This document shows positions 1-20,661 of a stretch of 23,422 nucleotides of DNA, in pieces (within the stretch, counting starts at the first letter, position 1; every line of letters starts with the position of its first letter). Source of the stretch: a virus; the IMG/VR virus record IMGVR_UViG_3300030617_000051, positions 1 to 23,422 of that record; one strand, written 5' to 3'. The position numbers were made by a program, and so were the translations under genes. The notes beneath the pieces were generated by a model. It searched no databases. It was not told where the DNA came from and worked only from the letters and a program-made list of their open reading frames with translations.

Positions 1-1
1 C

Positions 2-79
2 GAAGGTGACCTGTCTGCCTTCCTTGGCCGTGTGATTATGAGCGCTGAAGCGCACGTCTGCCCGTCGGACGATGAATGA
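2..79 (+). CDS. 3' end of an upstream gene (partial)
   Basis: An open frame runs from the left edge to TGA at 77-79 and encodes the last 25 residues of a protein ending CPSDDE. The stop overlaps the start of the polymerase gene in an ATGA arrangement, the normal spacing of translationally coupled genes in this window. The other two plus-strand frames are closed by stops here. Too little remains to identify the family. Confidence 0.6.
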   Translation, partial: EGDLSAFLGRVIMSAEAHVCPSDDE

Positions 80-2907
80 CTTTCGTTCACCTGCACAATC
101 ACACTCAATACAGCATGCTTGATGGAGCGTCCCGACTCGGGGCGCTCTTTTCATCTGCTGCCGAGATGGGCATGCCAGCCATCGCCATGACCGACCATGG
201 CAACGTGCACGGCGCCTACGATTTCTGGGAGACGGGCCAGAAGCACGGCATCAAGCCGATCATCGGCATGGAAGCCTATGTGGCGCCAGGATCCCGATTT
301 GATCGAGCACCGGTCCGATGGGGATCGGGTGGTAAGGATGATGTCTCAGGCCGTGGCGCATACACTCATATGACGCTGTACGCGTCTAGCAATGAGGGTC
401 TGCACAATCTCTTCAGGCTGTCGTCCAAAAGCTTCTCAGAGGGCATCTACTACAAGCCTCGGATCGATCTGGAGCTGTTGGCTGAGTACTCGGCCGGCAT
501 CATCGGTACGACTGGCTGCCCATCAGGTGCCGTGCAGACACGCCTTCGTCTCGGGGATCCTGATGCCGCAGCGATGCACGCGGCGGAACTGAGTGACATC
601 CTCGGGGTCGGCAATCTGTATGTTGAGCTGATGGATCACGGGCTAGAGATTGAGAGCCGTGTCAGAAACGGACTGCTGACTGTTGCCAGTCGTCTTCAGC
701 TTCCACTGCTGGCAACGAACGATAGCCACTTCGTCAAGTCTGAAGACGCTGCCGCTCACGATCTCCTTCTGTGCATCGGCACTCAGTCAACGCTAGATGC
801 CGAGGATCGATTTCGGTTCAACGGCGAAGGCTACTACCTTCGCTCGCCGGCCGAGATGCGTCATCTGTTTCGCGAACTGCCGGAAGCATGCGACAACACG
901 TTGACGTTGGCAGAGCGATGCAACGTCACCTTTGAGTCGCAGGATCTCACGCCAGTCTTTCCTGTTCCTGAGGGATGGACGGAAGAGCTGTACTTCAGGA
1001 CGGAGGTCTATCGCGGTCTTCAAGTTCGGTATCCGCGCGGGATCCCGCGCGACAGGATCGACAGGGCGGAGTACGAGCTTGGCGTCATTGGCAAGATGGG
1101 TTTTGCGTCCTACTTCCTGGTTGTTGCTGATCTCATCCGATTTGCTAAATCGCGCGGGATTCGCGTTGGCCCAGGTCGCGGATCGGCTGCCGGATCTCTA
1201 GTCTCGTATGCTCTGGGCATTACGGACTTGGATCCGATCGTTCATGGACTCCTCTTTGAGCGCTTCCTGAATCCTGAGCGCGTCTCCATGCCCGATGTGG
1301 ACATGGACTTTGATGACCGACGGAGAGGAGAAGTGATTGAATATGCCGCGCAGAGATGGGGCGGCGACCGAGTTGCCCAGATCGCCACGTTTGGTTATAT
1401 CAAGGCGAAGGCTGCGCTCAAGGACAGCGCTCGTGCACTCGGACTCGGGTATGATCTCGGCGACAGTCTCAGTAAGGCTTATCCACTTCCGATCATGGGT
1501 AAGGATGCACCGCTTGAGTGCGTTTACTCTCGCGAACATGTTCGTTATGGTGATGCTGGGAAATTCCGAAAGCTGGTTGAGACTGACGAAGATGCAAGGC
1601 GCGTCCTTGATCTCGCGTATGGAGTCGAAGGACTGATCAGGCAGCCTGGGGTTCACGCTGCCGGCGTGGTCATCAGTCGAGAGCCCCTGATCGATCACAT
1701 CCCGCTGTGGAGCCGGTCCGACGGCTCTGTTGTGACCCAATTCGACTACCCCACGTGCGAAGCACTCGGCCTGTTGAAGATGGATTTCCTCGGCTTGGCA
1801 AACCTGTCGATCATTGATGACTGCTTGAAGGAGGTGAAACGAAATCATGGTCGAGATGTTGACCTGCTGCGACTACCATTGGATGATCACGCGACTTTTG
1901 CACTGCTGTCCGCAGGACAGACGCTTGGAGTTTTCCAGCTTGACTCAGGCCCCATGCGGAAACTTCTTCAGCGTATGCGCCCAACTCAATTTGCGGACAT
2001 CAGCGCTGTCCTTGCTCTCTACCGTCCTGGACCAATGGGTGTCAAAGCGCACTACGCGTACGCGGATCGGAAGAACGGAAGAGAGCCAATTGACCCCCTT
2101 CACCCTGAGCTGAGCAACGCTCTCGATCCGATCCTGTCGCCAACCTATGGCGTCATCGTGTATCAGGAACAAGTCATTGCTGCGGCGCAAGCCGTGGCCG
2201 GCTACTCAGTGGGTCATGCTGACCTTCTCCGGAAGGCCATGGGCAAGAAGAACAAGGAAGTCCTTGACAAGGAGTTCATCCCGTTCTCTGATGGGATGAG
2301 ATCCAATGGATACTCGGAAGACGCGATCAGCGTCCTGTGGGAAACCTTGGTCCCTTTCGCCGACTACGCATTCAACAAGGCGCACGCATCGGCGTATGGG
2401 CTCATCAGCTACTGGACTGCCTACTTGAAAACGCACTATCCGGCCGAGTACATGGCTGCGGTGCTGACTGGTGAGATTGGTAAGGCTCCCGATAAGGACA
2501 GTACGTCTCTGTATCTGTCTGAGTGCCGGCGCATGGGCATCGAAGTCAGGACACCGGACGTCAACGGATCAAACGCCACCTATACGCCGACGCCTGAAGG
2601 CGTCATCCTGCACGGCCTTGGGGCCGTGAAGGGTGTGGGAGTGGCTGGAGATCTGATTACGGCAGAGCGGGACGCGTGGGGCCCGTATCGGTCCCTTCCT
2701 GATCTGCTTGCCAGGGTAGGGACTGGAGTCATGAACAAGCGCGTAGTTGAGGCCTTGGTTGCCGCTGGCGCCCTTGACGGTTTGGGCACACGATCTTCAC
2801 TTCTGGAGCAGTACGAAGCCGTCGGTGACGTCATCGGTGACATCGCGAAGCGGGAGAAATACGGACAGAAGACTCTGTTCGGCTCAGGACTTGTGTTGCT
2901 GACGTGA
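76..2907 (+). CDS. dnaE: DNA polymerase III alpha subunit (DnaE-like), C-terminally short
   Basis: Replicative family C DNA polymerase of 943 residues. The N-terminal PHP domain starts with HLHNHTQYSM (residues 5-14) and includes TDHGNVHG. The polymerase core carries GPGRGSAAGS, the catalytic PDVDMDF motif (D407 and D409, matching E. coli D401/D403) and KMDFLGL with D570 (matching D555). FNKAH (766-770) and a helix-hairpin-helix stretch (about 846-855) follow. The chain stops soon after the HhH region, whereas cellular DnaE proteins of about 1160-1180 residues continue into an OB fold and tau-binding domain. It therefore probably does not bind the host clamp loader in the usual way. The ATG overlaps the stop of the previous gene, so the two are likely coupled. 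Family assignment is secure; independence from the host clamp loader is inference. R4-like Streptomyces phages are known to carry DnaE-type polymerases. Confidence 0.96.
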   Translation: MTFVHLHNHTQYSMLDGASRLGALFSSAAEMGMPAIAMTDHGNVHGAYDFWETGQKHGIKPIIGMEAYVAPGSRFDRAPVRWGSGGKDDVSGRGAYTHMTLYASSNEGLHNLFRLSSKSFSEGIYYKPRIDLELLAEYSAGIIGTTGCPSGAVQTRLRLGDPDAAAMHAAELSDILGVGNLYVELMDHGLEIESRVRNGLLTVASRLQLPLLATNDSHFVKSEDAAAHDLLLCIGTQSTLDAEDRFRFNGEGYYLRSPAEMRHLFRELPEACDNTLTLAERCNVTFESQDLTPVFPVPEGWTEELYFRTEVYRGLQVRYPRGIPRDRIDRAEYELGVIGKMGFASYFLVVADLIRFAKSRGIRVGPGRGSAAGSLVSYALGITDLDPIVHGLLFERFLNPERVSMPDVDMDFDDRRRGEVIEYAAQRWGGDRVAQIATFGYIKAKAALKDSARALGLGYDLGDSLSKAYPLPIMGKDAPLECVYSREHVRYGDAGKFRKLVETDEDARRVLDLAYGVEGLIRQPGVHAAGVVISREPLIDHIPLWSRSDGSVVTQFDYPTCEALGLLKMDFLGLANLSIIDDCLKEVKRNHGRDVDLLRLPLDDHATFALLSAGQTLGVFQLDSGPMRKLLQRMRPTQFADISAVLALYRPGPMGVKAHYAYADRKNGREPIDPLHPELSNALDPILSPTYGVIVYQEQVIAAAQAVAGYSVGHADLLRKAMGKKNKEVLDKEFIPFSDGMRSNGYSEDAISVLWETLVPFADYAFNKAHASAYGLISYWTAYLKTHYPAEYMAAVLTGEIGKAPDKDSTSLYLSECRRMGIEVRTPDVNGSNATYTPTPEGVILHGLGAVKGVGVAGDLITAERDAWGPYRSLPDLLARVGTGVMNKRVVEALVAAGALDGLGTRSSLLEQYEAVGDVIGDIAKREKYGQKTLFGSGLVLLT

Positions 2908-2910
2908 AAC

Positions 2911-2946
2911 TTGACGCTTGACACCCGCTGCTGGCGGGTGCAGGAT
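2911..2946 (+). promoter_or_regulatory. Stoperator-like 13-mer with hairpin and -10-like hexamer
   Basis: TTGACGCTTGACA (2911-2923) begins four bases after the polymerase stop codon. The 7-bp perfect stem CACCCGC/GCGGGTG (2922-2940, loop TGCTG) starts within it. CAGGAT (2941-2946) lies 17 bp after the second TTGACA and could be a weak -10. This is either a promoter with a palindromic spacer or a repressor site coupled to a terminator-like hairpin. Confidence 0.55.
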
Positions 2947-2953
2947 CTTCACA

Positions 2954-2973
2954 TCAGAACCGATCAGAACCGA
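2954..2973 (+). repeat. Tandem 10-bp direct repeat
   Basis: TCAGAACCGA occurs twice back to back in the gap after the polymerase gene, between the regulatory element and the terminator. No function is evident. Confidence 0.6.
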
Positions 2974-2989
2974 TCGGCGAATGACATCG

Positions 2990-3026
2990 ATGGGCGCTCA
3001 TCCTCGACCCGTGGGCGCCCATTTTC
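2990..3026 (+). terminator. Probable rho-independent terminator after the polymerase gene
   Basis: ATGGGCGC (2990-2997) pairs perfectly with GCGCCCAT (3015-3022) across a 17-nt loop and is followed by a short T run (TTTTC). It lies in the longest gap of this part of the early arm, so it plausibly ends the upstream transcript. Confidence 0.55.
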
Positions 3027-3038
3027 AACCGCAGTTAC

Positions 3039-3051
3039 TTGACGCTTGACA
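3039..3051 (+). promoter_or_regulatory. Stoperator-like 13-mer abutting a Shine-Dalgarno
   Basis: An exact TTGACGCTTGACA copy. Its last A is the first base of the AGGAG Shine-Dalgarno (3051-3055) of the gene starting at 3062. A promoter using this TTGACA as -35 would start transcription inside that gene, so a repressor-binding role fits better than a promoter for it. Confidence 0.6.
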
Positions 3052-3061
3052 GGAGTCACGA

Positions 3062-3205
3062 GTGAGCGAGAACAGCAAGACGACCATCCGGAAGTTTCGT
3101 CGCCAGGACGAGACGAAGGTGTCCCGCAAGGACATGGAGAAGTACCGGACCACTCAGCGCCGGCTGGCACGGCGGATCAAGGCGCTCACCAACTCGACCA
3201 TCTGA
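3062..3205 (+). CDS. Small basic protein (47 aa)
   Basis: GTG start seven bases after the strong Shine-Dalgarno AGGAG, ending at TGA 3203-3205. The 47-residue product is highly charged and Lys/Arg-rich (MSENSKTTIRKFRRQ at the N-terminus, RRLARRIKALTNSTI at the end) and is probably mostly helical. It looks like the small basic proteins often found in actinophage early arms, but I recognise no family. A longer reading in another frame covers the same bases; the ribosome-binding site and the clean join to the next gene favour this frame. A nucleic-acid-binding role is only suggested by its charge. Confidence 0.6.
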   Translation: MSENSKTTIRKFRRQDETKVSRKDMEKYRTTQRRLARRIKALTNSTI

Positions 3206-3219
3206 AAGGCATTCGGATC

Positions 3220-3456
3220 ATGGTCATCACCATCGAAGACATCATCAAGCGGATCAAGCGATTCAAGGGTTACGAGATGTATGAGAAGGCCATTTTCTGG
3301 CTCCAGATGACCTTCCAGATGGAAGGGCCCCGTGCGGCTATGGCGCATGCGCGCCGTATTGAAGCTGCCTACAAGGCGCTTCGCAGTGACCGAATCGCGA
3401 AGCGCGAGGAATTCCTCCGTAACGACGCCACGCGTCGTGGACTGGTGATCGCATGA
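3220..3456 (+). CDS. Hypothetical early protein (78 aa), helical
   Basis: ATG at 3220 is preceded by GAAAGG about ten bases upstream. The frame is open further 5' but those residues belong to the overlapping 47-aa gene, so the short start is preferred. The product (MVITIEDIIKRIKRF...) is rich in charged and aromatic residues with predicted helices, including EMYEKAIFWLQMTFQM and ARRIEAAYKALR. No catalytic motif is visible and I do not recognise the family. Its stop overlaps the next start as ATGA. Confidence 0.65.
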   Translation: MVITIEDIIKRIKRFKGYEMYEKAIFWLQMTFQMEGPRAAMAHARRIEAAYKALRSDRIAKREEFLRNDATRRGLVIA

Positions 3457-3536
3457 GCGATGACCGTCCCGTGGACTACGAAGACGAAGATTTCGATTAT
3501 GGAGATGACGATGGTCGGTTCGATTGCGCTGACTGA
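3453..3536 (+). CDS. Tiny acidic ORF (27 aa)
   Basis: ATG overlaps the previous stop (ATGA) and the frame closes at TGA 3534-3536. The 27-residue product is strikingly acidic: 12 Asp/Glu, including runs such as YEDEDFDYGDDD. It overlaps the 5' end of the ParB-like gene, whose Shine-Dalgarno and start lie inside it. It may be a real micropeptide or a coupling ORF that carries ribosomes to the next start. Only the overlap pattern and composition support it. Confidence 0.4.
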   Translation: MSDDRPVDYEDEDFDYGDDDGRFDCAD

Positions 3537-3912
3537 AGTCCTCGCACTCGGATCTACCGATGCGCCGTCCTATAGTCGATGCCCCGCCTGTAAGGTCGTC
3601 TACAACGACGATTGCGAATCCTGCGGCTGCCCGAACGGCGTTTCTTGGAATGATGCCGAGATCGTTAGGAACGTTCGGGAGACGCTTTCAAAGAAGCGTC
3701 GCGATGGAGAGTACCCCGATTTGTTGGATTCGATCCGACTGCATGGTATCTCCCGTCCAATCCTGATCAAAAATGGAATTGTCTGCAATGGCCACCATCG
3801 CATAGCAGCAGCGCAAGACCTGGGAATCTCTGAGATTCCATACACTGATGACCCCGAGATCGGATGGGAGGATGACTGGCCCGATGGGCAGATTCCAGAT
3901 TCCTGGGCCTGA
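3511..3912 (+). CDS. ParB/Srx-like domain protein with Cys cluster
   Basis: About 133 residues from ATG 3511, which has GGAG six bases upstream; earlier in-frame ATGs at 3460, 3499 and 3505 lack a comparable site. The N-terminal part holds the cysteine-rich, zinc-ribbon-like run CPACKVVYNDDCESCGCP. The C-terminal half has the ParB N-terminal-like core: RLHGISRPILIKNGIVCNGH followed by HRIAAAQDLGISEIPY, with the typical G-H-H-R loop. Members of this fold act as DNA-binding partition proteins, nucleases or CTPases; in phage early regions many are uncharacterised. It has no ParA partner here, so partition is unlikely. The end overlaps the next gene by 29 bases. Confidence 0.72.
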   Translation: MVGSIALTEVLALGSTDAPSYSRCPACKVVYNDDCESCGCPNGVSWNDAEIVRNVRETLSKKRRDGEYPDLLDSIRLHGISRPILIKNGIVCNGHHRIAAAQDLGISEIPYTDDPEIGWEDDWPDGQIPDSWA

Positions 3913-4504
3913 ACTAGCGAGGCTGACGCATAACGCTCTTGCGTTCATGCCGGCGCGTAGCGCGGTCAAGGTCTGCCGAGTCCACCAGAATATCGGCAGC
4001 CTCAGCATCATGGCGACCGATATTTATAGCCTAGGCTACGATTCGGCAAGCGTAGAAACTGAGAACGATACGGCACAGATCGACCTGTGTCGTGCCGATC
4101 TGGTGGAACTGGACAAGATCGCACGGGCCCGCAAGAAGGACGCAGTCGAGATCGATATCCGTCACCAGGATGGACTGTCAATCCTAGACGATAACGGCGC
4201 ATGGATGCCGATGCGCGATGCATCGGAGCAACGCAATCCTGTCGATCTCTGGGACCGCTGTTACGACCTGCTGACTCGCGAGACGCCAACGCGTCTCGTC
4301 CTGATCGATCCGAAGATGATGGCTGCCTTCGGCAAGATCAAGGCTGCTGGCGAGACCATCGCCGACCTCTCCATCTCCGACGGTGATGAGCAGATCTCCG
4401 TGAAGATCGGATCCACGTTCGTTGGCGCCATCATGCCAGTCGATCGATACACGGCAGCACAGTCCGAAGAGATCGGAGCTGAAGGGCTCTGGCCATCAAT
4501 TTAG
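3884..4504 (+). CDS. Probable DNA polymerase III sliding-clamp-like protein
   Basis: 206 residues from ATG 3884 (MGRFQIPGPELARL); a GGGAGG lies 12 bases upstream, slightly far. The pattern resembles the divergent clamp-like proteins of actinophages: an N-terminal helix (ELARLTHNALAFM), then SLSIMATDIYSLGYDSASVE, matching the 'atDrYrLg' strand of beta-clamp domains, and a C-terminal stretch DGDEQISVKIGSTFVGAIMP typical of the final clamp strands. Cellular beta clamps are about 370 residues with three domains, so this would be a shortened form. Proximity to the phage DnaE supports a processivity role. Homology is judged by eye; structure prediction would settle it. Confidence 0.6.
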   Translation: MGRFQIPGPELARLTHNALAFMPARSAVKVCRVHQNIGSLSIMATDIYSLGYDSASVETENDTAQIDLCRADLVELDKIARARKKDAVEIDIRHQDGLSILDDNGAWMPMRDASEQRNPVDLWDRCYDLLTRETPTRLVLIDPKMMAAFGKIKAAGETIADLSISDGDEQISVKIGSTFVGAIMPVDRYTAAQSEEIGAEGLWPSI

Positions 4505-4512
4505 GCAATTTC

Positions 4513-4525
4513 TTGACGCTTGGCA
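4513..4525 (+). promoter_or_regulatory. Stoperator-like 13-mer variant abutting a Shine-Dalgarno
   Basis: TTGACGCTTGGCA differs from the common form at one position. It fills most of the 31-bp gap between two genes and runs straight into AGGAGG (4525-4530), the ribosome-binding site of the gene at 4536. There is no room for a -10 and start site before that gene. Confidence 0.55.
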
Positions 4526-4535
4526 GGAGGATGGC

Positions 4536-4904
4536 GTGTTGGTGTATCGGGTAGCAACAGCAGAAAGGATGCCCTACGGCGTTCCTGGGGGCCCGTACAA
4601 CGGGCCGGAAACCGATGAATGGCAAAAAGACATGGCGTGGGCGCACAGCAACCGGGATCATCCAAATCCATATGACGATGGCGGTCTGCACGGAATTCTG
4701 GATGACGAATTCTGTGCCTTCGCATCCATGGAACTGCTGACGTCCTGGTTCAAGGACTGGCTGGACAAGCTCCATGAAGCCGGCTACCTGAAGCACGTCT
4801 ACGACGTGCCAGACGAACATGTTCGATTCGGAGAGAAGCAGGTAGTAGCCAAGCTCAAGCTTGGCGCTCTCGTCCGGACAGAACCGATCCTGGTTGCGGC
4901 ATGA
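4536..4904 (+). CDS. Conserved phage hypothetical protein (122 aa)
   Basis: GTG start five bases after a perfect AGGAGG. The frame is open further upstream into the clamp-like gene, but this start has by far the best ribosome-binding site. The product starts MLVYRVATAERMPYGVPGGP and has HPNPYDDGG, a Trp/Phe-rich middle (LLTSWFKDWLDKLHEAGYL) and ends with a VYDVPDEHVRFGEKQVVAKL segment. This order (Tyr-Arg-Val start, GPY, acidic loop, 'F/W-S-L-E-L-x-x-W-F', C-terminal 'G-x-x-Q-V-V') resembles a widespread family of phage and prophage proteins of unknown function. No activity can be assigned. Confidence 0.75.
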   Translation: MLVYRVATAERMPYGVPGGPYNGPETDEWQKDMAWAHSNRDHPNPYDDGGLHGILDDEFCAFASMELLTSWFKDWLDKLHEAGYLKHVYDVPDEHVRFGEKQVVAKLKLGALVRTEPILVAA

Positions 4905-5114: not shown

Positions 5115-7127
5115 ATGCCTAGTCTAACCATGCCCGTGGCCACTGGTGTGCTTAGGGCCGTTGACTACAATCGGGTCTCCACCGAAGAGCAGCGCAAGGG
5201 TTATGGCATTGCTGCCGGCCTGCGCAAGTCTGCCTCCTTCATCACCCGCAAGGGCTGGGACCATGTAGGCACTTACAAGGATGAGGGTCTGTCTGGATCC
5301 TTGGAGATGGGCTCCCGAGCGGACTTCGATCGTCTCATGCTCGACGCGAAGACGATCGACACCTTTGGCAGGCGTGCCTTTGATGTGGTGGTGGTACCCA
5401 AGGGCGACCGCATCGGCCGTACCGGCCGCGCCTTTTGGCGTTGGGTATGGGCACTTGAAGACATCGGTATCTTCGTTGCCCTAGTAGACAAAGACTGCGA
5501 CAATACGACTCAAGCCGGGCGTTCCGAGTTTCGCAAATCTGCGGACTATGCCGAGACCGAATGGGAAACGATCCGCTCTCGAACTCAAGACGGCCTTCAA
5601 GAGAAGGCCTATGCTGGCGGCTGGATCGGCGGCCCACCACCTTTCGGCTATGAGATCGAGAATCAGGGCAAGCGTGGTGAATCTCACCTGATCGTTTGCG
5701 ATAGGGAAGCCCTCATGGTTCGGATTGTCGTAAAGGCCCTCCAGGAAGGCGACAGTCTGAACGATGCCGCGATCATCCTCAACATGGAAGAGCAGTTCAC
5801 TCGATCGGGCAGGCCCTGGGGACGTGAGAATCTGCGTCACCAGATATTCTCTGACGCAATCCTTAACGGATACGTCATCTTTAGGAACACAGCCGTCAAT
5901 GCGAAGGCTGGTCCCGATGGCGAGCCGCTATACGGCCCATCGGTGAAGATCCCAGTCCCTCAGTTCCTGACCGATGATGAGGTTGCCTACCTGCGAGAAT
6001 GGCAGATGCGGTCACGGAAGCCCAAGCGCCGTGCTGATGCCACTTACCCTCTGTCTCTGCGCCTGATCGGCATGTGCGGCAAGCACTATAGTGGCCAGGG
6101 GCGGTCAGAATCTGGATACATTCGCGGCTATCGATGCTCCGGAAAGAATCAGTCTTATCCGGGCGCCCCTACTTGCAACGATCATAACATCGATGCCAGC
6201 ACCCTCGAAAAGGCCGTGTGGGATCTCCTCTGCACGAAGCTCGGCGATCGTGACAAGCTTGAGGAAATTTCGGCTGAATGGCTGAGCCTTGCCGGAGAAG
6301 GATTCGAGATGCACGAATCCCGGATTTCCGACCTTGAGTCGGCAATCAAGCGACAGAATTCCGTCATCAGCACGACTGTGGTGAGCCTTGCAAGGCTTGG
6401 ACAAAGTGAAGAAGAGATCGCTGTGGCCGTACGGCCACTCAATGAAGAACTTGAGCAGATCCAAAAGATGAAGGCTGATGCCGAGGCGTGGTTCAAGGAA
6501 CGGGAGGATGGCGCGCAGCGCGGGCGGGATCTTGCTGCCTTGGCGCAGATGGCGCAGGAAAGGCTTGGGGACGAGTCTCTAGAAACTCAGGCGCGCTTCC
6601 TGGACCTACTAGACGTACGCGTGCACATCCTGTCTCCTGTACCGATTCTGGCCGGCGGTCATCCCTGCACGGTGGCCGGCTGGTACGAAGAGCGGAAGCG
6701 AGGTGTCCCGATGGAGCTGACAGACGATCAGTGGGCGCGTGTGGCGCCCCTAGTGGGCTCTACAGACGCGCTGAGAAGGCGCGTCAACGCCGTACTTCAC
6801 AAGGCTCGTTCGCGCTGCCGTTGGGCCGATCTGCCGTCGGAGTACGGCTCGCCAAACACGGCGCGCCGGGCATGGACTCAATGGTCAACGGGCCTGTGGG
6901 CGCAGGTGGATCAGGTTCTTGATGATGCCGAGAGGAGTGACTTCGTGCCTACGATGCGCCCGCTGCCAGACTTTGAGCTGCGCGTAGATGTGGACCCCCG
7001 CATCTTGGTAGTCGCGGAACCATCCCGAACGGAGTGGTTTCCCCACTCGCAGGATGTGCGTCCACGGCTTCACCTGCGGATCGATCGGGAATCCGCACAG
7101 CTTCGAACAGTCCTGACTGCCGCGTGA
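5115..7127 (+). CDS. int: Large serine integrase with C-terminal DUF4096-like domain
   Basis: A 670-residue site-specific recombinase expected to join phage attP to host attB. ATG 5115 has AGGAG seven bases upstream. The catalytic domain has DYNRVSTEEQ with nucleophile S22, then the GLSGS and PKGDRIGRTGRAF motifs. A recombinase domain follows (GGPPPFGYEIE onward), then a zinc-ribbon region with C321, C341 and C354 (H324 in place of the usual fourth Cys) and a long coiled coil (about 385-500). The core would normally end near residue 520. Here a further 150 residues follow: 533-602 (LTDDQWARVAPLV... RRVNAVLHKARSRCRWADLP) match the DUF4096 domain of IS5-type transposases, followed by about 68 unrecognised residues. 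The frame is uninterrupted. An internal ATG at 6711 with a weak site (GAGG) could also express the extra domain alone. Confidence 0.95.
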   Translation: MPSLTMPVATGVLRAVDYNRVSTEEQRKGYGIAAGLRKSASFITRKGWDHVGTYKDEGLSGSLEMGSRADFDRLMLDAKTIDTFGRRAFDVVVVPKGDRIGRTGRAFWRWVWALEDIGIFVALVDKDCDNTTQAGRSEFRKSADYAETEWETIRSRTQDGLQEKAYAGGWIGGPPPFGYEIENQGKRGESHLIVCDREALMVRIVVKALQEGDSLNDAAIILNMEEQFTRSGRPWGRENLRHQIFSDAILNGYVIFRNTAVNAKAGPDGEPLYGPSVKIPVPQFLTDDEVAYLREWQMRSRKPKRRADATYPLSLRLIGMCGKHYSGQGRSESGYIRGYRCSGKNQSYPGAPTCNDHNIDASTLEKAVWDLLCTKLGDRDKLEEISAEWLSLAGEGFEMHESRISDLESAIKRQNSVISTTVVSLARLGQSEEEIAVAVRPLNEELEQIQKMKADAEAWFKEREDGAQRGRDLAALAQMAQERLGDESLETQARFLDLLDVRVHILSPVPILAGGHPCTVAGWYEERKRGVPMELTDDQWARVAPLVGSTDALRRRVNAVLHKARSRCRWADLPSEYGSPNTARRAWTQWSTGLWAQVDQVLDDAERSDFVPTMRPLPDFELRVDVDPRILVVAEPSRTEWFPHSQDVRPRLHLRIDRESAQLRTVLTAA

Positions 7128-7300: not shown

Positions 7301-7819
7301 ATGCCACGACCGAGGACACTGCCTGATGATGAAATTCTGGTGCGGGACAAAGATTTCCTGGGTCTGAGTCTCAATGAAATCGCGGACAAGTACGGCGTGA
7401 GCAAGCAGGCCGTAAGCGCGCTTTTCATTGAGATGGGTAGACCATGGGGCGCGGTAGCGCCGGTAAATTACCGGGACTATCTGCCCTGGGACATCGGTCG
7501 CGATCATCAGGCCCTTGATGCCGCACAGAGGCTCAGGGCACACATCAGGTGGAGGACAGGACACCCGTCGACAGACGCGCAGTTGCGTCGTCTGTCCAAC
7601 TGGCATGCACGCATCACACGCGAGAATGTAACAGTTGTGTACGATCCTGTCCTGCCGTCGCCGTGGATCTACGTGCCGCGCACGGCTTCTGACGGAGAGT
7701 TGATCATCCGCTGGCCGGCAGACATAGAGCCTCCGACCGACGTTCAGCGCGCTGTCCTGCTGCTACCCAGGGGCCCTGAGCTGGGCGAACGGCATGTCAG
7801 GGAGACTCTGAGTAGCTAG
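7301..7819 (+). CDS. HTH DNA-binding protein, candidate immunity repressor
   Basis: 172 residues from ATG 7301, with AAGGG about ten bases upstream. Residues 18-45 form a helix-turn-helix: LSLNEIADKYGVSKQAVSAL, with the usual Ala and Gly in the helix and turn. The rest has no recognised domain and could mediate asymmetric site recognition or dimerisation. Three points suggest the lysogeny repressor: it sits next to the integrase, it is a single gene between its own promoter and a strong terminator (7853-7882), and the repeated 13-mer overlaps its promoter. The cluster A/L5 repressor is of similar size (about 183 residues). Its role is inference; it could instead be an excision or Cro-like regulator. 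Confidence 0.75.
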   Translation: MPRPRTLPDDEILVRDKDFLGLSLNEIADKYGVSKQAVSALFIEMGRPWGAVAPVNYRDYLPWDIGRDHQALDAAQRLRAHIRWRTGHPSTDAQLRRLSNWHARITRENVTVVYDPVLPSPWIYVPRTASDGELIIRWPADIEPPTDVQRAVLLLPRGPELGERHVRETLSS

Positions 7820-14763: not shown

Positions 14764-15119
14764 CAGACGAGTGGACTGGCCGCAAGTACGTCGGCATTGG
14801 AGCGGACGCGCGTCCGCTGGAAATCATCTCGGAGCCCTTCAAGGGTGGCGAGATTCAATACGTGGCCTTCAAGAGCGGACTCGAAGTTGCAGTTGTCCGC
14901 ACGGACTCTCTCGATGAAGGCCGCTTCGGTCTCTTCCGGCGCATCATTGAGCCGAAGTACAAGGTTGGCGACAGGGTTGTTATCGGTGACGACGTCTACA
15001 CCATCGATGCAGTGTCGTCCAAGCCCGATAAGGATGGAGAATTCCTTTACATCCTCAATAGCCCAGAGGACATCGATTACTCATGGCAGCTCTACATCGA
15101 CCGTAAGGCCGATGCATGA
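14760..15119 (+). CDS. Hypothetical protein with SH3-like segment (119 aa)
   Basis: GTG 14760 overlaps the phosphoesterase stop, with GGAGTACAG upstream. The N-terminal half (EIISEPFKGGEIQYVAFKSG) and the C-terminal half (PKYKVGDRVVIGDDVYTIDA) look like small beta structures; the latter has the same 'K-V-G-D-R-V' pattern as the barrels at 11807-12406. Function unknown. ATGA coupling to the sigma-like gene. Confidence 0.65.
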   Translation: MTDEWTGRKYVGIGADARPLEIISEPFKGGEIQYVAFKSGLEVAVVRTDSLDEGRFGLFRRIIEPKYKVGDRVVIGDDVYTIDAVSSKPDKDGEFLYILNSPEDIDYSWQLYIDRKADA

Positions 15120-15724
15120 CAGATATCGACTGGCAACCGATCACCGAACTCGCGAAGCGAGTCGGGAAGAAGTACGCGGCCAAGTATCCGGGCATTGATG
15201 CCGAGGACATCTCTCAGGAAGTCCTGGTGAAGCTTGTCGAGCATCCCGACATCCTTCGGGCCTTCCCGGAGAACATTGCCGTTGTCACGGCTCTCATGGG
15301 CAAGCTTGCCGCCGGCTATGCGTCGATGGAGCGATACGACTACACGGTTCGATCGGCGAAGTACCTCTACACACCGGACGAAGTCAGGGCACTTCTTGAG
15401 CATGCCTACTGGGATGAGTCCCTGAGAGAGACATCAGTCCCGACAGGACCGGACGACAGGACGGCACTGGTCGTCTGGCAGAACGTCTGCGTTGCCCTCT
15501 GGGATCTCGATGCCGCATTCACCGCGCTCAATCCGGCCGATGCATTCCGGCTCCAGTCGCGTTACTGGATGGGGAACGAGTTCCCGACCGATGCAGCGAA
15601 GAAGGCTTGCTATCGAGCCGTGGACACTCTCACTCGATACCTGAATGAACGGGTCAATCGGAGCACTGTTGACCACGACGGACCAGGATCCCGTAAGGCC
15701 GGCAAGCTGCCGGCCGCAGCATAA
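15116..15724 (+). CDS. Sigma-factor-like protein
   Basis: 202 residues from ATG 15116. The N-terminal part (ITELAKRVGKKYAAKYPGID followed by AEDISQEVLVKLVEHP) matches sigma region 2, especially the 'D-x-x-Q-E-x-x-x-K' helix that binds core polymerase. The C-terminal part (NEFPTDAAKKACYRAVDTLTRYLNE) is arranged like a weak region 4 helix-turn-helix. The middle is divergent and the tail is Ala/Lys-rich. It may redirect host RNA polymerase to late or early phage promoters, or be a relic used as a regulator. The match is moderate and by eye. Confidence 0.6.
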   Translation: MTDIDWQPITELAKRVGKKYAAKYPGIDAEDISQEVLVKLVEHPDILRAFPENIAVVTALMGKLAAGYASMERYDYTVRSAKYLYTPDEVRALLEHAYWDESLRETSVPTGPDDRTALVVWQNVCVALWDLDAAFTALNPADAFRLQSRYWMGNEFPTDAAKKACYRAVDTLTRYLNERVNRSTVDHDGPGSRKAGKLPAAA

Positions 15725-16673: not shown

Positions 16674-16873
16674 TGGCTATCCGAATCAGAGCAACATTCG
16701 TTATCGAGTACGATGCGGATCCCGGTGACTATGGCACTGACGTACCGGCAGATATGGCATCGGTTGATGAGGAGAATTACACTAGCGGCTCCGTAAGTCT
16801 GGATGAGCTTGCCTATGGTGGCGATGACGTCACGATAGCTGCGACTTTCGAAGGGCTGGTAGTCAATGACTGA
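16673..16873 (+). CDS. Hypothetical acidic protein (66 aa)
   Basis: ATG 16673 overlaps the previous stop by one base (TAATG). The product (MAIRIRATFVIEYDADPGDY...) is rich in Asp/Glu with beta-strand ends (VTIAATFEGLVVND). No family recognised. Its end overlaps the next gene by eight bases. Confidence 0.65.
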   Translation: MAIRIRATFVIEYDADPGDYGTDVPADMASVDEENYTSGSVSLDELAYGGDDVTIAATFEGLVVND

Positions 16874-17231
16874 GTTCGAGGTCGGAGACATCATTGAGTG
16901 CCCCACCGACGATAAAGAGCGGGAGCGATACGAAGTCAAGTACGTCATCCGTCAGCCCGATGGCCGAGTCTTCTACATCGGCAAGGTATTGACCGGCGAT
17001 CGTGTCGGACATGAGCTTTGGGGGATCTTCAGTACGGCTCGCAAGGTCGAACCATTCTTTGAAGCTGGCAAGACATATCGGGATCACGACGGAGAGCTGT
17101 TCGAGGTGCAGCACGTATCGGAGCGATACGGCAAGAAGATCGCGGCCGGCTGGGCTAAGTATCCGGACATGGATGATGGATACTGGATTTCCAAGACCAT
17201 GTTCGGTCGGTGGACCGAGGTGAAGGACTAG
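16866..17231 (+). CDS. Hypothetical protein with SH3-like strands (121 aa), last of early arm
   Basis: ATG 16866, reached through overlap with the previous gene. Strand-rich sequence with FEVGDIIECPTDDKERERYE near the start and a second similar part (FEAGKTYRDHDGELFEVQHV), so it may hold two small barrels like the proteins at 11807 and 14760. TAG 17229-17231 lies eight bases before the convergent terminator, making this the last gene of the arm. Confidence 0.68.
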   Translation: MTEFEVGDIIECPTDDKERERYEVKYVIRQPDGRVFYIGKVLTGDRVGHELWGIFSTARKVEPFFEAGKTYRDHDGELFEVQHVSERYGKKIAAGWAKYPDMDDGYWISKTMFGRWTEVKD

Positions 17232-17238
17232 AACGACA

Positions 17239-17271
17239 GAAAGCCCCCGCCATCAGGCGGGGGCTTTCGTG
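17239..17271. terminator. Bidirectional terminator at the end of the early arm
   Basis: GAAAGCCCCCGCC (17239-17251), loop ATCA, GGCGGGGGCTTTC (17256-17268): a perfect 13-bp stem with T-rich flanks on both strands. It stops the plus-strand arm and may stop minus-strand transcription from the DUF397 gene. The rest of the gap to 17343 holds only a small hairpin TCAGG-TACTG-CCTGA at 17301-17315. Confidence 0.88.
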
Positions 17272-17343
17272 TTTCGGCAGTAAGTAATCCGTGACTCACG
17301 TCAGGTACTGCCTGATGCCAGCCCATTGGAGCCGACCCTGATA

Positions 17344-17538
17344 TCAGCCTAGCTCACCGTTCTTGATCGCGGAGACGAACGCCGACCAGGCTTCAGAGCC
17401 GAACTGAAGTGCCGGCCCCTGGGGGTCCTTCGTGTCGCCTACAGCGACACCATCAACAGCGGCAACCTCTACACAGTCGCCAGACGCATTGCTGTAGCTG
17501 GCCTTACGCCAGGTGCCCTCGATACCGTGCTTCATCAT
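17344..17538 (-). CDS. DUF397 protein
   Basis: 64 residues; the ATG at 17538 overlaps the XRE gene's stop (ATGA) with AAGGAG nine bases upstream. The sequence has the family hallmarks in order: WRKASYSNASGDCVEVA, then VAVGDTKDPQGPALQFGSEA and WSAFVSAIKNGEL. DUF397 proteins are nearly always encoded next to a WhiJ-type XRE regulator in Streptomyces, and such pairs (Scr1/Scr2, WhiJ region) regulate antibiotic production or development, with the small protein thought to modulate its partner. In a phage this is probably host-derived cargo. Confidence 0.93.
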   Translation of the reverse strand: MMKHGIEGTWRKASYSNASGDCVEVAAVDGVAVGDTKDPQGPALQFGSEAWSAFVSAIKNGELG

Positions 17539-18389
17539 GGCGCATACTCCTTAGCGAGTTGGTGTAGCCAGTCGCGCGTTCGCTCTGGCGGATCCGCAGA
17601 CGCCATGAGTCGACTGAAAGCGTCTTCATGGCGATCGAGGTCTGATGGTCGGTCCATATAAAGTGCACCGGTCATAGCCTCTGTATAGGCCACGGTTCCG
17701 GGCACTTCGTCAGTGAACTCGAAGAGCACGAAGCTTTGTCCCATGCTGGCATGGGCTCCGGCAGTGAAGGGCAGGAACTGCACCACAACCTTGGAACTTC
17801 GCGAAAGATCGGCCAGCTTGAGTAGCTGAGCTGCCATAATGGCCGGCGATCCAACAGGGCGCCGGGCAACAGCTTCGCTCATGACTGCCCAGATCTGCGG
17901 ACCCTCTGGACGATCAAGGATCGCCTGGCGCTCCATCCGAAGCGCAACACGTTGATCAATCTGGTCGCTGGTCTCCAGTGGATGCCCCACTTGGAACACT
18001 GCCCGAGCGTAGTCCTGGGTCTGGAACAAGCCGGGGATCAACTCCTGCTGGAACGTGCGGATCCTGGCAGCGTCAGCCTCAAACCCTACGTAGTCGGCGA
18101 ACCAGCCGGGCACCGAGTCTCCGTAGGACTGCCACCATCCTCGCTGCCGGCTACGGCGAGCAAGATCTCTGATCGATCGCACCTCGTCATCGGCCGTTAC
18201 CCCATAGATTTCAAGCAGGGGACGTACGTCCGCATCCCGAAGGGCGATCTCTCCCGACTCGATACGAGACAGCTTGCTCAGCGACCAGCCGAGCGGGGCA
18301 CAGACGTCCTTGGCTGCGATGTTCTGGTCTGACCGCAACTTGCGCAGCGACGCGCCCAGACGTCGCCTCAGCACGGTTGGACTCTGCAC
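17535..18389 (-). CDS. WhiJ/Scr1-type XRE regulator (DUF5753)
   Basis: 284 residues from GTG 18389, preceded on the minus strand by GGGAGAGG four bases upstream; an upstream extension in frame to 18440 lacks a site and would collide with the divergent promoter. The N-terminal HTH is LRRRLGASLRKLRSDQNIAA then LGWSLSKLSRIESGEIALRD, about residues 5-55. The rest is the DUF5753 domain: WFADYVGFEADAARIRTFQQ, LIPGLFQTQDYARAV, VVVQFLPFTAGAHASMGQSF and VAYTEAMTGALYMDRP. Members bind DNA and work with the adjacent DUF397 protein. It may control its own divergent promoter region (18390-18566). This is a host-type regulator, not a typical phage repressor. Confidence 0.92.
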   Translation of the reverse strand: MQSPTVLRRRLGASLRKLRSDQNIAAKDVCAPLGWSLSKLSRIESGEIALRDADVRPLLEIYGVTADDEVRSIRDLARRSRQRGWWQSYGDSVPGWFADYVGFEADAARIRTFQQELIPGLFQTQDYARAVFQVGHPLETSDQIDQRVALRMERQAILDRPEGPQIWAVMSEAVARRPVGSPAIMAAQLLKLADLSRSSKVVVQFLPFTAGAHASMGQSFVLFEFTDEVPGTVAYTEAMTGALYMDRPSDLDRHEDAFSRLMASADPPERTRDWLHQLAKEYAP

Positions 18390-18473
18390 GCTGCCTCTCC
18401 CAGGTCGATGACGCACATACAGTCTCCCACCACCTCTCACCTGATCAACCCCCGGCTCGCGCGATCATGCAAC

Positions 18474-18501
18474 TTGCACTTGCTGTCAAATTTGCACTTG
18501 C
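18474..18501. promoter_or_regulatory. Direct repeats in the divergent regulator region
   Basis: TTGCACTTGC occurs at 18474-18483 and 18492-18501, 18 bp apart start to start, with TGTCAAAT between. On the minus strand TTGACA (18484-18489) could be a -35 for the XRE gene. The 177-bp region 18390-18566 divides two divergent genes, so these repeats are the best operator candidates for the XRE/DUF397 pair. Confidence 0.55.
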
Positions 18502-18566
18502 ATCGGAGCCTACCTGCGGGGCATCATGAAGTCAGGAAGATTGCTCATAGTGATCGCGAGTCGCCC

Positions 18567-19031
18567 ATGAGTGATCTTGATCCGGCATCAGATTGGATCA
18601 TCATGGGATCAGCCGTGTTAGCTGTGGCTTGGAGACGCTTCTACGTCAGTACGCCCGAAGGGCTTTCGTCGCTCAGGCGACACTGCCGTCGGTCCATGGA
18701 GCTGCAATGGCTCCTACTCAATCCCGTCCTCGATGCCGCAGAGCTGGTCATCAGCGAGCTAGCCACGAACGCGATCAGGCACGCCGATGGTGTGGAGGGC
18801 ATAGACCTGCGGATCGTAGACGTCTACTACGACCATCCCGTCCTGACGATCGAGTGCCGAGATGGATCCCCCGTCTTCGATGTTGTGGCGCCCGGCAACT
18901 CCCTCTCAGACAGCTGTCGCGGTCTGGGTATCGTCACCGCGCTCACGGACCACTGGCACATAGAGCCCAGGGGTTCAGGCAAGTCAGTGATCGCGGTCAT
19001 CGACACGTCACTCAAACGGGTGAAGCTGTAG
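18567..19031 (+). CDS. RsbW/SpoIIAB-like anti-sigma ATPase with a TTA codon
   Basis: About 154 residues from ATG 18567 (ribosome-binding site weak; ATG 18603 is an alternative). GHKL ATPase motifs are in order: N-box ELVISELATNAIRHADG, D-x-G in LTIECRDGSPVFDV, and the G-x-G-L lid SCRGLGIVTALTDHW. This is the HATPase_c_2 type common in Streptomyces, where such kinases bind anti-sigma-factor antagonists or sigma factors, and it is a frequent neighbour of WhiJ-like/DUF397 pairs. Codon 18 (18618-18620) is TTA, the rare codon read only by the bldA tRNA in Streptomyces, so translation may wait for late growth or development. It is transcribed away from the XRE gene. Confidence 0.85.
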   Translation: MSDLDPASDWIIMGSAVLAVAWRRFYVSTPEGLSSLRRHCRRSMELQWLLLNPVLDAAELVISELATNAIRHADGVEGIDLRIVDVYYDHPVLTIECRDGSPVFDVVAPGNSLSDSCRGLGIVTALTDHWHIEPRGSGKSVIAVIDTSLKRVKL

Positions 19032-19081
19032 ACCAGACGCTTTGATGAAGGCGCGAGGGGCAAGATGCCCCTTCCATAGAC

Positions 19082-19119
19082 TCCTCCGGAGAGTCGCTGA
19101 CCCTTCTATCTCCGGAGGA
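19082..19119. repeat. Inverted repeat after the ATPase gene
   Basis: TCCTCCGGAGA (19082-19092) and TCTCCGGAGGA (19109-19119) are perfect complements, and each arm is itself nearly palindromic, so alternative folds exist. Another hairpin, GCGTGGC...GCCACGC, follows (19121-19145). Together with the terminator at 19150 they fill the gap 19032-19149, which otherwise holds no gene I can support. Confidence 0.6.
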
Positions 19120-19149
19120 CGCGTGGCCGTCGGTCGGCCGCCACGCAAA

Positions 19150-19179
19150 GAAGCCCCCCGCCTGATGGCGGGGGGCTTC
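19150..19179. terminator. Bidirectional terminator between late arm and cassette
   Basis: GAAGCCCCCCGCC, loop TGAT, GGCGGGGGGCTTC: a perfect 13-bp stem, followed by CTTCTTTG on the minus strand. It ends the minus-strand lysis transcript and the plus-strand ATPase transcript. It is nearly the mirror image of the terminator at 17239. Confidence 0.88.
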
Positions 19180-19185
19180 GTCGTT

Positions 19186-19416
19186 CTAGCTACTGGACTC
19201 CAGCTGAGTCACACGCTGGTCCAGCGCGGTAAGGGCCGTGGATGTGTTGGTGGCGTGCTGACTCAGCTCATCGCCAAGACGCACAACCGCAGCAGTGTTC
19301 TCGGCAACTGCCGTGACGAAGTCATGAAGCTTCGCCAGACTCTTGGCACACATGGCCAGTAGGGCACCCGCAGTGCCTATCGCAGCCATGATGGTCGTAA
19401 TGGTGTCGATGCTCAT
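19186..19416 (-). CDS. Holin-like small membrane protein (76 aa)
   Basis: Starts at ATG 19416; the ribosome-binding site is weak. One hydrophobic segment (TIMAAIGTAGALLAMCAKSL, residues 6-26) is followed by a probable coiled coil (VRLGDELSQHATNTSTALTA, then LDQRVTQLES). One membrane segment plus a short soluble coil, directly after the endolysin and another small gene, fits a holin or holin-associated protein that controls timing of lysis. It could also be a membrane anchor. It is the last gene of the late arm, and its TAG stop lies at the start of the terminator repeat. Confidence 0.7.
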   Translation of the reverse strand: MSIDTITTIMAAIGTAGALLAMCAKSLAKLHDFVTAVAENTAAVVRLGDELSQHATNTSTALTALDQRVTQLESSS

Positions 19417-19426
19417 AACTCAGTCA

Positions 19427-19795
19427 TCACGCACCAGGCGCGACAGGCGCCTCAGCCGCCGGAGCGGCTGGCACAGCTATCGGCACTGCACTGGCCGCAT
19501 GCTCAACAGCCGCAGCCAGCTTCCGCAGCTCGGCCGCAGCATCAGCCCGAACACGATCAACATCGGCCGTGGCCTGAGCCTTCAGCTTGGCCACCTCAGC
19601 CTCAACTGCCTTGGCAACGCTCGGATCATGAGTCTCTACATAGTCCACAACGCCCGTAGCGTCGTGCTGAAGGGTGGCCACGTTGCCAGTAGCCACGGCG
19701 GTTGCAACGCCAGTCAGACGGGCGCTGACGTAGCTCAGCGCGTTGTGCAGAGTGACACCAGACCCAACGACAGTCAGCAGTTCAACAAGGCTCAT
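19427..19795 (-). CDS. Ala-rich coiled-coil protein in the lysis region (122 aa)
   Basis: ATG 19795 overlaps the endolysin stop (TGATG). The N-terminal 35 residues are moderately hydrophobic (LLTVVGSGVTLHNALSYVSA), then a long Ala/Lys/Glu helix (AEVAKLKAQATADVDRVRAD onward) and a Pro/Ala tail (PAAPAAEAPVAPGA). It may be a second holin-type protein or a membrane-associated lysis accessory, but no known family is recognised. Confidence 0.65.
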   Translation of the reverse strand: MSLVELLTVVGSGVTLHNALSYVSARLTGVATAVATGNVATLQHDATGVVDYVETHDPSVAKAVEAEVAKLKAQATADVDRVRADAAAELRKLAAAVEHAASAVPIAVPAAPAAEAPVAPGA

Positions 19796-20661
19796 CAGAC
19801 AGCACTTCCCTTCAGGGCAGACAGGAGATTGGCGACCATGGCCGCATAGCCGGCCTCAACAGCCGCAGTGATCTGAGCGGCGGACGGACCGCCAATGGAT
19901 GCAATGGTGGCGAGATCGGCCTTGATGGCTGCGGTCTGCGCGTCGCGCTCATAATCGACGTACGCCATGACGCCACCAGGCGTCATGGCCTTCTTAGTGG
20001 CAACGTTCGTCATCTGGAAATTCCAGACAGCGGCAGCGATGTTCTTGAGGTCGTCGGCATCGAGAGTGGCCAAGACATCCTCCTTCGGTCGTGGGTACTG
20101 CCCATAGTCGGCAGTCTGGGCATAGTCGTAATCGGCAGAGCCGCTGAACAGCGTTCCCTCTTGACGGATATTGGCGTGAGCACTCCACTTGCCATCCGAC
20201 CAGGCCATGGTCTGCCAGAAGAAAGATGCTGTGGCTGGCGAAGCCGCCACGCTCTCAACCGCGTAGTAGCCACCGTAGAATCCGGATCGGCTAATGCCGA
20301 TCACAGAATTCACGCCATCCATGTACTGATTGATTGTGTGGAACCGCGATCCGCTCGCATCGAAGTCACAGGCGAAATAGATGACCGTGTCATCGGGAAG
20401 GCCAACCGCCTTCCGCTGTGCATCGGCAGTCTGGGCATCGGCCACGCCAGCGGCATAGCCGCCAAGCATTCGATTCGCAGCGCCTTCCCAGACCACGATG
20501 ATATCCAGGCCGTGAGCCTGATAGTCGGTGACCTCGGACGCGGTAATGTTCTTGGTGGAATCAGGACTCAGATATCGGGCCACAAAGTGGGCGCCAGACG
20601 CCAGGATCTGACTTGTATCAGGCCGTGCCCAAGCGATATCGATTCCCATCACGTCAGTCAA
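19795..20661 (-). CDS. Endolysin with DUF1906 glycoside-hydrolase-like domain
   Basis: 288 residues; TTG 20661 has GGAGG four bases upstream on the minus strand. Residues 1-190 match the DUF1906/Rv2525c-like TIM-barrel: MGIDIAWARPD, HFVARYLSPDSTKNI, IIVVWEGAANRMLGGYAAG, VIYFACDFDASGS and GFYGGYYAVE. These domains are used by actinophages to cut peptidoglycan glycans. The C-terminal 90 residues (DLKNIAAAVWNF...AQITAAVEAGYAAMVANLLS) form a separate helical part that may bind the wall or multimerise. There is no signal peptide, so release needs a holin, likely one of the two genes downstream. Confidence 0.88.
   Translation of the reverse strand: MTDVMGIDIAWARPDTSQILASGAHFVARYLSPDSTKNITASEVTDYQAHGLDIIVVWEGAANRMLGGYAAGVADAQTADAQRKAVGLPDDTVIYFACDFDASGSRFHTINQYMDGVNSVIGISRSGFYGGYYAVESVAASPATASFFWQTMAWSDGKWSAHANIRQEGTLFSGSADYDYAQTADYGQYPRPKEDVLATLDADDLKNIAAAVWNFQMTNVATKKAMTPGGVMAYVDYERDAQTAAIKADLATIASIGGPSAAQITAAVEAGYAAMVANLLSALKGSAV

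Follow-up and report, generated by a model that had tools for sequence, protein, structure and literature searches.

Regulators of the whiJ-bldB-abaA type are used by Streptomyces-type bacteria to control sporulation and antibiotics, and few gene sets of Streptomyces are as expanded, or as poorly understood, as the corresponding clusters. Considered here is a three-gene cassette of this type at positions 17229-19188 of viral DNA, namely IMG/VR record IMGVR_UViG_3300030617_000051, which was analysed as one complete linear virus record of 23,422 bp (the window). By its gene content and layout the cassette is a member of the whiJ-bldB-abaA-type clusters. With some reserve, we consider it probable that the trio is lysogenic cargo of a temperate Streptomycetaceae phage, by which the developmental state of the host would be read.

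Closest described systems

The nearest bacterial counterpart is the trio SCO1978-SCO1979-SCO1980 of Streptomyces coelicolor, encoding a DUF397 protein, an XRE-DUF5753 regulator and an AbaA-like protein, respectively. The window regulator matches the NCBIfam model Sco1979 over its full length with 291 bits, but this score lies under the family cut-off of 350 bits, so it is only a candidate orthologue, and the window cluster differs in being phage-borne. The likeness extends to SCO1980, an AbaA-like neighbour often carrying a TTA codon (PMC4255298). WhiJ itself (SCO4543) was rejected as an orthologue, the best curated model being the Sco1979 family at the score just given.

The whiJ locus of S. 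coelicolor (SCO4542-4544) and whiJ9-bldB9-iosA of S. venezuelae resemble the window in gene types or layout. The intergenic region of the divergent S. venezuelae genes has three direct repeats to which WhiJ9 binds; when WhiJ9 is lost, transcription of its own gene doubles (PMC10294661). Direct repeats occupy the same kind of region in the window, where the operator is a predicted one; the WhiJ9 consensus is CGXXCTCAAC in three copies, whereas the window has GCAAGTGCA in two. In addition, iosA, unlike the third gene of the window, does not encode an ATPase.

Searching annotated phages with the regulator gave 14 tblastn matches, none above 39% identity. The full trio is present in the Streptomyces phages Picard and Darolandstone, where DUF397, a DUF5753 regulator and a divergent HATPase follow directly after the endolysin and two small genes. 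Their regulators are only 32-34% identical to that of the window, belong to another clade and have the opposite orientation relative to lysis, and one extra gene lies behind their ATPase. Regulator-DUF397 pairs were found in Samy and Success. The Samy pair (SAMYPH_91/90) shows 39% identity and a similar hairpin after DUF397, but lacks the ATPase and adjoins the integrase and att. The Success pair (gp06/gp07) ends a comparable early arm in the same orientation, but shows 31% identity; its neighbour gp05, considered as a possible ATPase, has no such domain.

Organization of the cassette

The features of the cassette, in window coordinates, are as follows.

17239-17268, no strand assigned: left hairpin arm, preceded by TAGAACGAC at 17229-17237 (inverted-pair and folding analysis)
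17344-17538, minus strand: DUF397 protein of the BldB type, 64 aa (Pfam PF04149, E=5.8e-21)
17535-18440, minus strand: WhiJ/Sco1979-type regulator with HTH_31 and DUF5753 (Pfam, PHROGs), likely GTG start at 18389
18422-18434 (approximate), minus strand: leader element GGNAGACTGT before the start of the regulator gene, also present in several trio phages and in one homologue from a chromosome
18474-18502, no strand assigned: predicted operator within the divergent promoter region, where TTGCACTTGC (minus-strand reading GCAAGTGCA) stands as two direct repeats 18 nt apart
18567-19031 (start approximate, alternative 18603), plus strand: divergent AbaA-like HATPase_c_2 protein of the anti-sigma type (PF13581, E=5.7e-9)
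18618-18620, plus strand: TTA (UUA) leucine codon, the sole TTA among 27 predicted window genes
19150-19179, no strand assigned: right hairpin arm, 7 nt past the stop of the lysis arm, which runs on the minus strand (inverted-pair and folding analysis)

All three Pfam assignments exceed the gathering cut-offs, and all three reading frames are intact. The regulator was identified by DUF5753 (E=1.5e-58) and HTH_31 (E=1.8e-12); from its likely GTG start, preceded by GGGAGAGG, it has 284 aa, the cluster type being about 280 aa. The DUF397 gene lies directly downstream and shares 4 nt with the end of the regulator gene. Of the two motifs defined for DUF397 proteins, CxE and RDS (PMC7159879), the first is kept as CVE and the second is changed to GDT, RDS being present in 66 of 88 collected DUF397 reading frames. 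The boxes of the ATPase are intact (N box ELATNAIRHA, G1 DGSP, G2 RGLGIV). The trio was also assigned to phrog_10815, phrog_9908 and phrog_12354, so each gene type was known from phages already. Solved-structure searches gave HTH domains only for the regulator and one chance antibody match for the ATPase.

The hairpins may be read as terminators of the two convergent phage arms, which would stop cassette transcripts as well. Their arms, 30 nt each, are 87% complementary as an inverted pair, and a comparison of the record with itself extends the likeness to 36 nt at 92% (E=1.3e-7). On both sides TAGAACGAC runs from the flanking stop codon and precedes the hairpin, which begins 7 nt after that codon, and the distances to the cassette genes are 75-118 nt. 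Each arm folds into a hairpin with a 13-bp stem (z = -4.1 to -6.5 against dinucleotide shuffles). A canonical U-tract is absent in both arms, and a consensus scan for promoters and terminators detected neither. Since each hairpin is palindromic, it is the loop, together with the flanking TAGAACGAC, that justifies the designation "inverted". There is no further copy of AGAACGAC in the approximately 44 kb of this phage and no other copy of TAGAACGAC elsewhere in it, and the arm sequence was found in no other viral contig. A very similar hairpin stands 3' of the DUF397 gene in prophage Samy, so this type of terminator is not peculiar to this phage.

An earlier note, made from the letters of this DNA, had described an XRE-DUF5753, DUF397 and anti-sigma ATPase trio lying exactly between two almost identical terminator arms and isolated from both arms of the phage. 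The domain matches bear out the trio at this place, its boundaries 17229-19188 proved correct, the arms are indeed alike from the stop codon on, and a hairpin on each side insulates the trio. The term "WhiJ-like" stands as far as the developmental whiJ/bldB/abaA type is meant, but the regulator is nearer to the Sco1979 family than to WhiJ.

TTA codon in the abaA-like gene

In Streptomyces, UUA is a rare codon which the bldA tRNA alone reads, and it becomes readable late in development. SCO1980 carries TTA in 9 of 14 Streptomyces and, like other AbaA-like genes, is listed among those in which TTA is conserved (PMC4255298). TTA codons in phage genes were listed earlier for phage CW39 (PMC13350457); no report linking TTA to a phage abaA-like gene was found.

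The only TTA in the 6,256 codons of the 27 window genes is codon 18 of the abaA-like gene when counted from ATG 18567 and codon 6 when counted from ATG 18603; outside the window, one further TTA was present in eight structural genes checked. Among phage genes of these types, TTA was found in 13/23 abaA-like, 8/87 whiJ and 3/81 DUF397 genes (odds ratio 9.7, Fisher p = 1.9e-8), and the enrichment persists when the ATPase core only is counted (odds ratio 7.2, p = 5.7e-5). TTA makes up 4.4% of leucines in the phage abaA-like genes versus 0.4% in neighbouring regulators and 0.9% in DUF397. It mostly stands near the 5' end: in 11 of the 13 abaA-like genes its position relative to the start of the ATPase core is between -14 and +5 codons. 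Darolandstone has two TTA in 12,326 codons, one in the abaA-like gene and the other as the second codon of a regulator whose start is doubtful; the Picard abaA-like gene has zero. The 5'-end TTA of the window is a candidate bldA gate on the abaA-like gene, and its presence in this gene strengthens the link with host development.

Phage genome, lysogeny and integration site

Two features of the window concern the temperate life of the phage.

5115-7127, plus strand: serine integrase with a C-terminal DUF4096 domain, containing the attachment point at about 7024 (domain and junction searches)
7301-7819, plus strand: probable immunity repressor of the phrog_3929 repressor family, 38% identical to the Hydra repressor (family and homology searches)

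The phage is temperate, because contig IMGVR_UViG_3300029951_000382 (G002, 33.6 kb), an integrated prophage with one visible border, joins phage DNA to a Streptomycetaceae chromosome inside rarD. Its bases 1-2484 (L187) are chromosome of 71.5% GC, after which the phage begins at window position 7025; the cassette that follows has the sequence and orientation of the window. This 2,484-base flank contains genes for a RarD/EamA transporter, a DeoR-type regulator and a solute-binding protein, named by reading their translations, and is 89% identical over its full length to the best-matching Streptomycetaceae genome. The border lies inside the rarD/EamA-type gene, which is uninterrupted (an empty site) in relatives, and the contig supplies both the host family and attB. 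The shared att core is approximately CCGAA, and its phage side falls in the 3' end of the integrase reading frame, so that integration alters the tail of this frame. DUF4096, a domain of the IS4/5 transposase type, is an extra C-terminal part of the integrase; the same fusion was observed in viral contig L027, whose integrase is 35-36% identical to that of the window.

Another contig, IMGVR_UViG_3300031964_000803 (42.4 kb), contains the identical cassette in the same orientation. Its bases 37528-42431 are identical to window positions 1-4904, which closes the genome at about 44.8 kb, and the whole overlap with the window shows two differing positions only (14139 and 23400). IMG/VR scans with single proteins led to only two contigs, whose regulator, ATPase and endolysin show 100% identity, and near-DNA and distant-DNA searches against GenBank phages gave zero matches. 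The replication genes are similar to those of Arquatrovirinae: the DNA polymerase is 57-58% identical to those of Hydra and Celia, and the helicase, primase and repressor genes are also related. The genome that encodes the anti-sigma-like ATPase also encodes a sigma-factor-like protein (phrog_354, window 15116-15724), a possible partner.

Predicted operator and leader element

By analogy with WhiJ9, the GCAAGTGCA repeats are predicted to be an autoregulatory operator. The nearest viral homologues, contigs L026-L028 with a regulator 52% identical to that of the window, also have GCAAGTGCA twice, at -61/-44 compared with -62/-44 in the window, within DNA that has otherwise diverged. Elsewhere in the phage this 9-mer has one copy, inside a tail gene, and none is found in the early promoters. 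Since the copies are local and the early promoters lack them, the regulator looks like a local one and not like the immunity repressor; the latter role was rejected for it, the gene at 7301-7819 being the better candidate. In the chromosomal homologue of Streptomycetaceae genome G054 the operator is absent.

The leader element, in the form GGNAGACTG(T), occurred in 17/179 regulator upstream regions (for example, at about 7951-7960 in L027) versus 0/179 control stretches, and may be either the -10 region of a promoter or a further site of binding.

Distribution, phylogeny and composition

Of 256 relatives found in IMG/VR, 80 were fetched, and 78 remained after leaving out the same phage. An adjacent DUF397 gene was present in 72 of these 78 contigs and a divergent abaA-like gene in 24, while in 80 chromosomal loci the corresponding numbers were 60 for DUF397 and 23 for a nearby abaA-like gene. 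In actinophages the pair of regulator and DUF397 is common. In a tree of 163 regulators, Picard, Darolandstone and Samy fall into a clade of 25 rows, all from phages, with a support of 98. The window regulator belongs to another, small clade (support 99), whose further members are two viral contigs and the chromosomal G054 copy; viral and chromosomal rows were drawn by different queries, and this sampling accounts in part for the grouping by origin. The G054 copy (L206; G054:C1:8161426-8162271) is 54% identical and accompanied by DUF397; it is probably phage-derived or otherwise foreign in its genome, because it has 58% GC within a chromosome of 71% GC. A Streptomyces CBMA123 copy, 53% identical, looks like a remnant without HTH.

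The GC content of the cassette (60%) and its third-position GC are those of the phage, the host flank having 71.5%. This phage-like composition and the recurrent phage lineages argue that the cassette is not a fresh host insertion, and recent capture from the host was rejected in view of the composition and of the old phage lineages in the regulator tree. The cassette may be read as old, long-resident phage cargo, occasionally exchanged with chromosomes.

The slot after the lysis genes in Picard and Austintatious is a cargo hot spot. In Picard (L014) it contains the trio, and in Austintatious (L017) the occupants are a methyltransferase, small genes and a DUF5753 gene that is divergent. The flanks are closely related, the neighbouring tail and lysis proteins of the two phages being 65-84% identical in their best segments. 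The comparison of presence and absence in relatives, proposed in the earlier note, showed that the cassette is accessory and not core: Austintatious carries other cargo, and DUF5753 matches are absent in Arquatrovirinae, the nearest polymerase relatives. From the idea of an inserted host cassette, the accessory character and the developmental type may be kept, but the composition is that of the phage and the relatives form old phage lineages.

Neighbouring genes

16866-17231, plus strand: last gene of the early arm, without a family, converging on the cassette (list of open reading frames, domain searches)
19186-19795, minus strand: two small genes ending the lysis arm, probably holin or holin-like by position only (after the endolysin, as in Picard)
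19795-20661, minus strand: endolysin, Rv2525c glycoside-hydrolase-like (domain and PHROGs searches)

Proposed function and alternative explanations

The cassette lies where the convergent early and lysis arms meet, insulated by a terminator on each side, and according to the proposed mechanism it would work there as lysogenic cargo. The HTH-DUF5753 protein would bind the two GCAAGTGCA repeats and control its own operon and the abaA-like gene, and the DUF397 protein, judging from work on host WhiJ and BldB, would modulate this regulator. The abaA-like ATPase, a candidate anti-sigma factor of the SpoIIAB/AbaA type, would be the output of the cluster and, if the UUA at its 5' end acts as a gate, would be made only with active host bldA tRNA. 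In this way the prophage would read the developmental stage of the host and, in the lysogen, influence sporulation, secondary metabolism or the activity of sigma factors. The cassette may alter host development, as is suggested by its host paralogues (PMC10294661, PMC10364602, PMC4255298) and the TTA codon. A wider idea, that temperate actinophages repeatedly kept a UUA-gated cluster, with prophages sensing the bldA clock and acting on host or phage sigma factors only in differentiating hyphae, is tentative and, in our opinion, rather doubtful.

Several points weigh against this reading. The prophage junction is seen in a single contig with one of two borders visible, and a chimeric assembly is possible. 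A start of the abaA-like gene at GTG 18624 would leave the TTA outside it, neither of the ATG starts (18567, 18603) has a clear ribosome-binding site, and the TTA counts are phylogenetically non-independent, a few clades supplying most of them. The operator is confined to the close clade of the window, and from one intergenic region alone its rarity by chance is only modest (22/2000 shuffles).

Among the rivals, the least improbable, although unlikely, is that the regulator serves the phage itself in lysogeny or superinfection as an accessory regulator with no role in host development. HTH-DUF5753 genes do lie near the integrase, repressor or att in Samy, Austintatious and Picard, but the phage has a separate repressor-like gene (7301-7819), the sole other GCAAGTGCA copy sits in a tail gene, and terminators insulate the regulator from both arms. 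Slightly less likely still is an addiction module stabilising the prophage, with the regulator as antitoxin, DUF397 as toxin and the ATPase as a passenger. Such a type II pair was predicted from mobility and gene order (PMC2701414; PMC7159879), and most phages carry the pair without the ATPase; against it, 14 DUF397 proteins of S. coelicolor were non-toxic when overexpressed (PMC10364602), BldB and WhiJ function as regulators (PMC10294661), and PADLOC gave no match for DUF397.

That the trio is an ordinary moron, decayed or neutral, left by mosaic exchange at a terminator-bounded slot, would agree with the different post-lysis cargo of the related phages Austintatious and Picard and with the change of RDS to GDT, but three intact frames, the preserved ATPase motifs and operator repeats and the identity of the contigs across the cassette make it quite improbable. 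The smallest chance belongs to recent capture of a host cassette that could move or invert by way of its inverted terminator arms. The arms are unique in the genome and alike even through the gene ends, and the orientation of the trio relative to lysis is reversed in Picard and Darolandstone; because Picard-type regulators belong to a different clade, however, these differences in orientation point to separate acquisitions. The composition matches the phage, the arm sequence does not recur in other viral contigs, and the window, the free-phage contig and the prophage contig have one cassette orientation, although three contigs are a small sample. Neither the cassette nor its immediate surroundings contain a recombinase; the integrase lies at a distance of 10 kb and has a separate att site. 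No target duplication is visible. The suggestion of insertion or inversion through the arms, made in the earlier note, thus has nothing in its favour beyond the arms themselves.

Significance

Recurrent prophage cargo with a UUA-marked ATPase would provide small natural versions of the whiJ-bldB-abaA system, and the prophage trios allow a direct test of whether prophages read or alter sporulation and antibiotic production. Phages are also suggested as one of the routes by which these clusters spread between strains. If the wider idea of a UUA-gated cluster repeatedly kept by temperate actinophages is true, the cassette would be a dedicated phage sensor of bacterial development.

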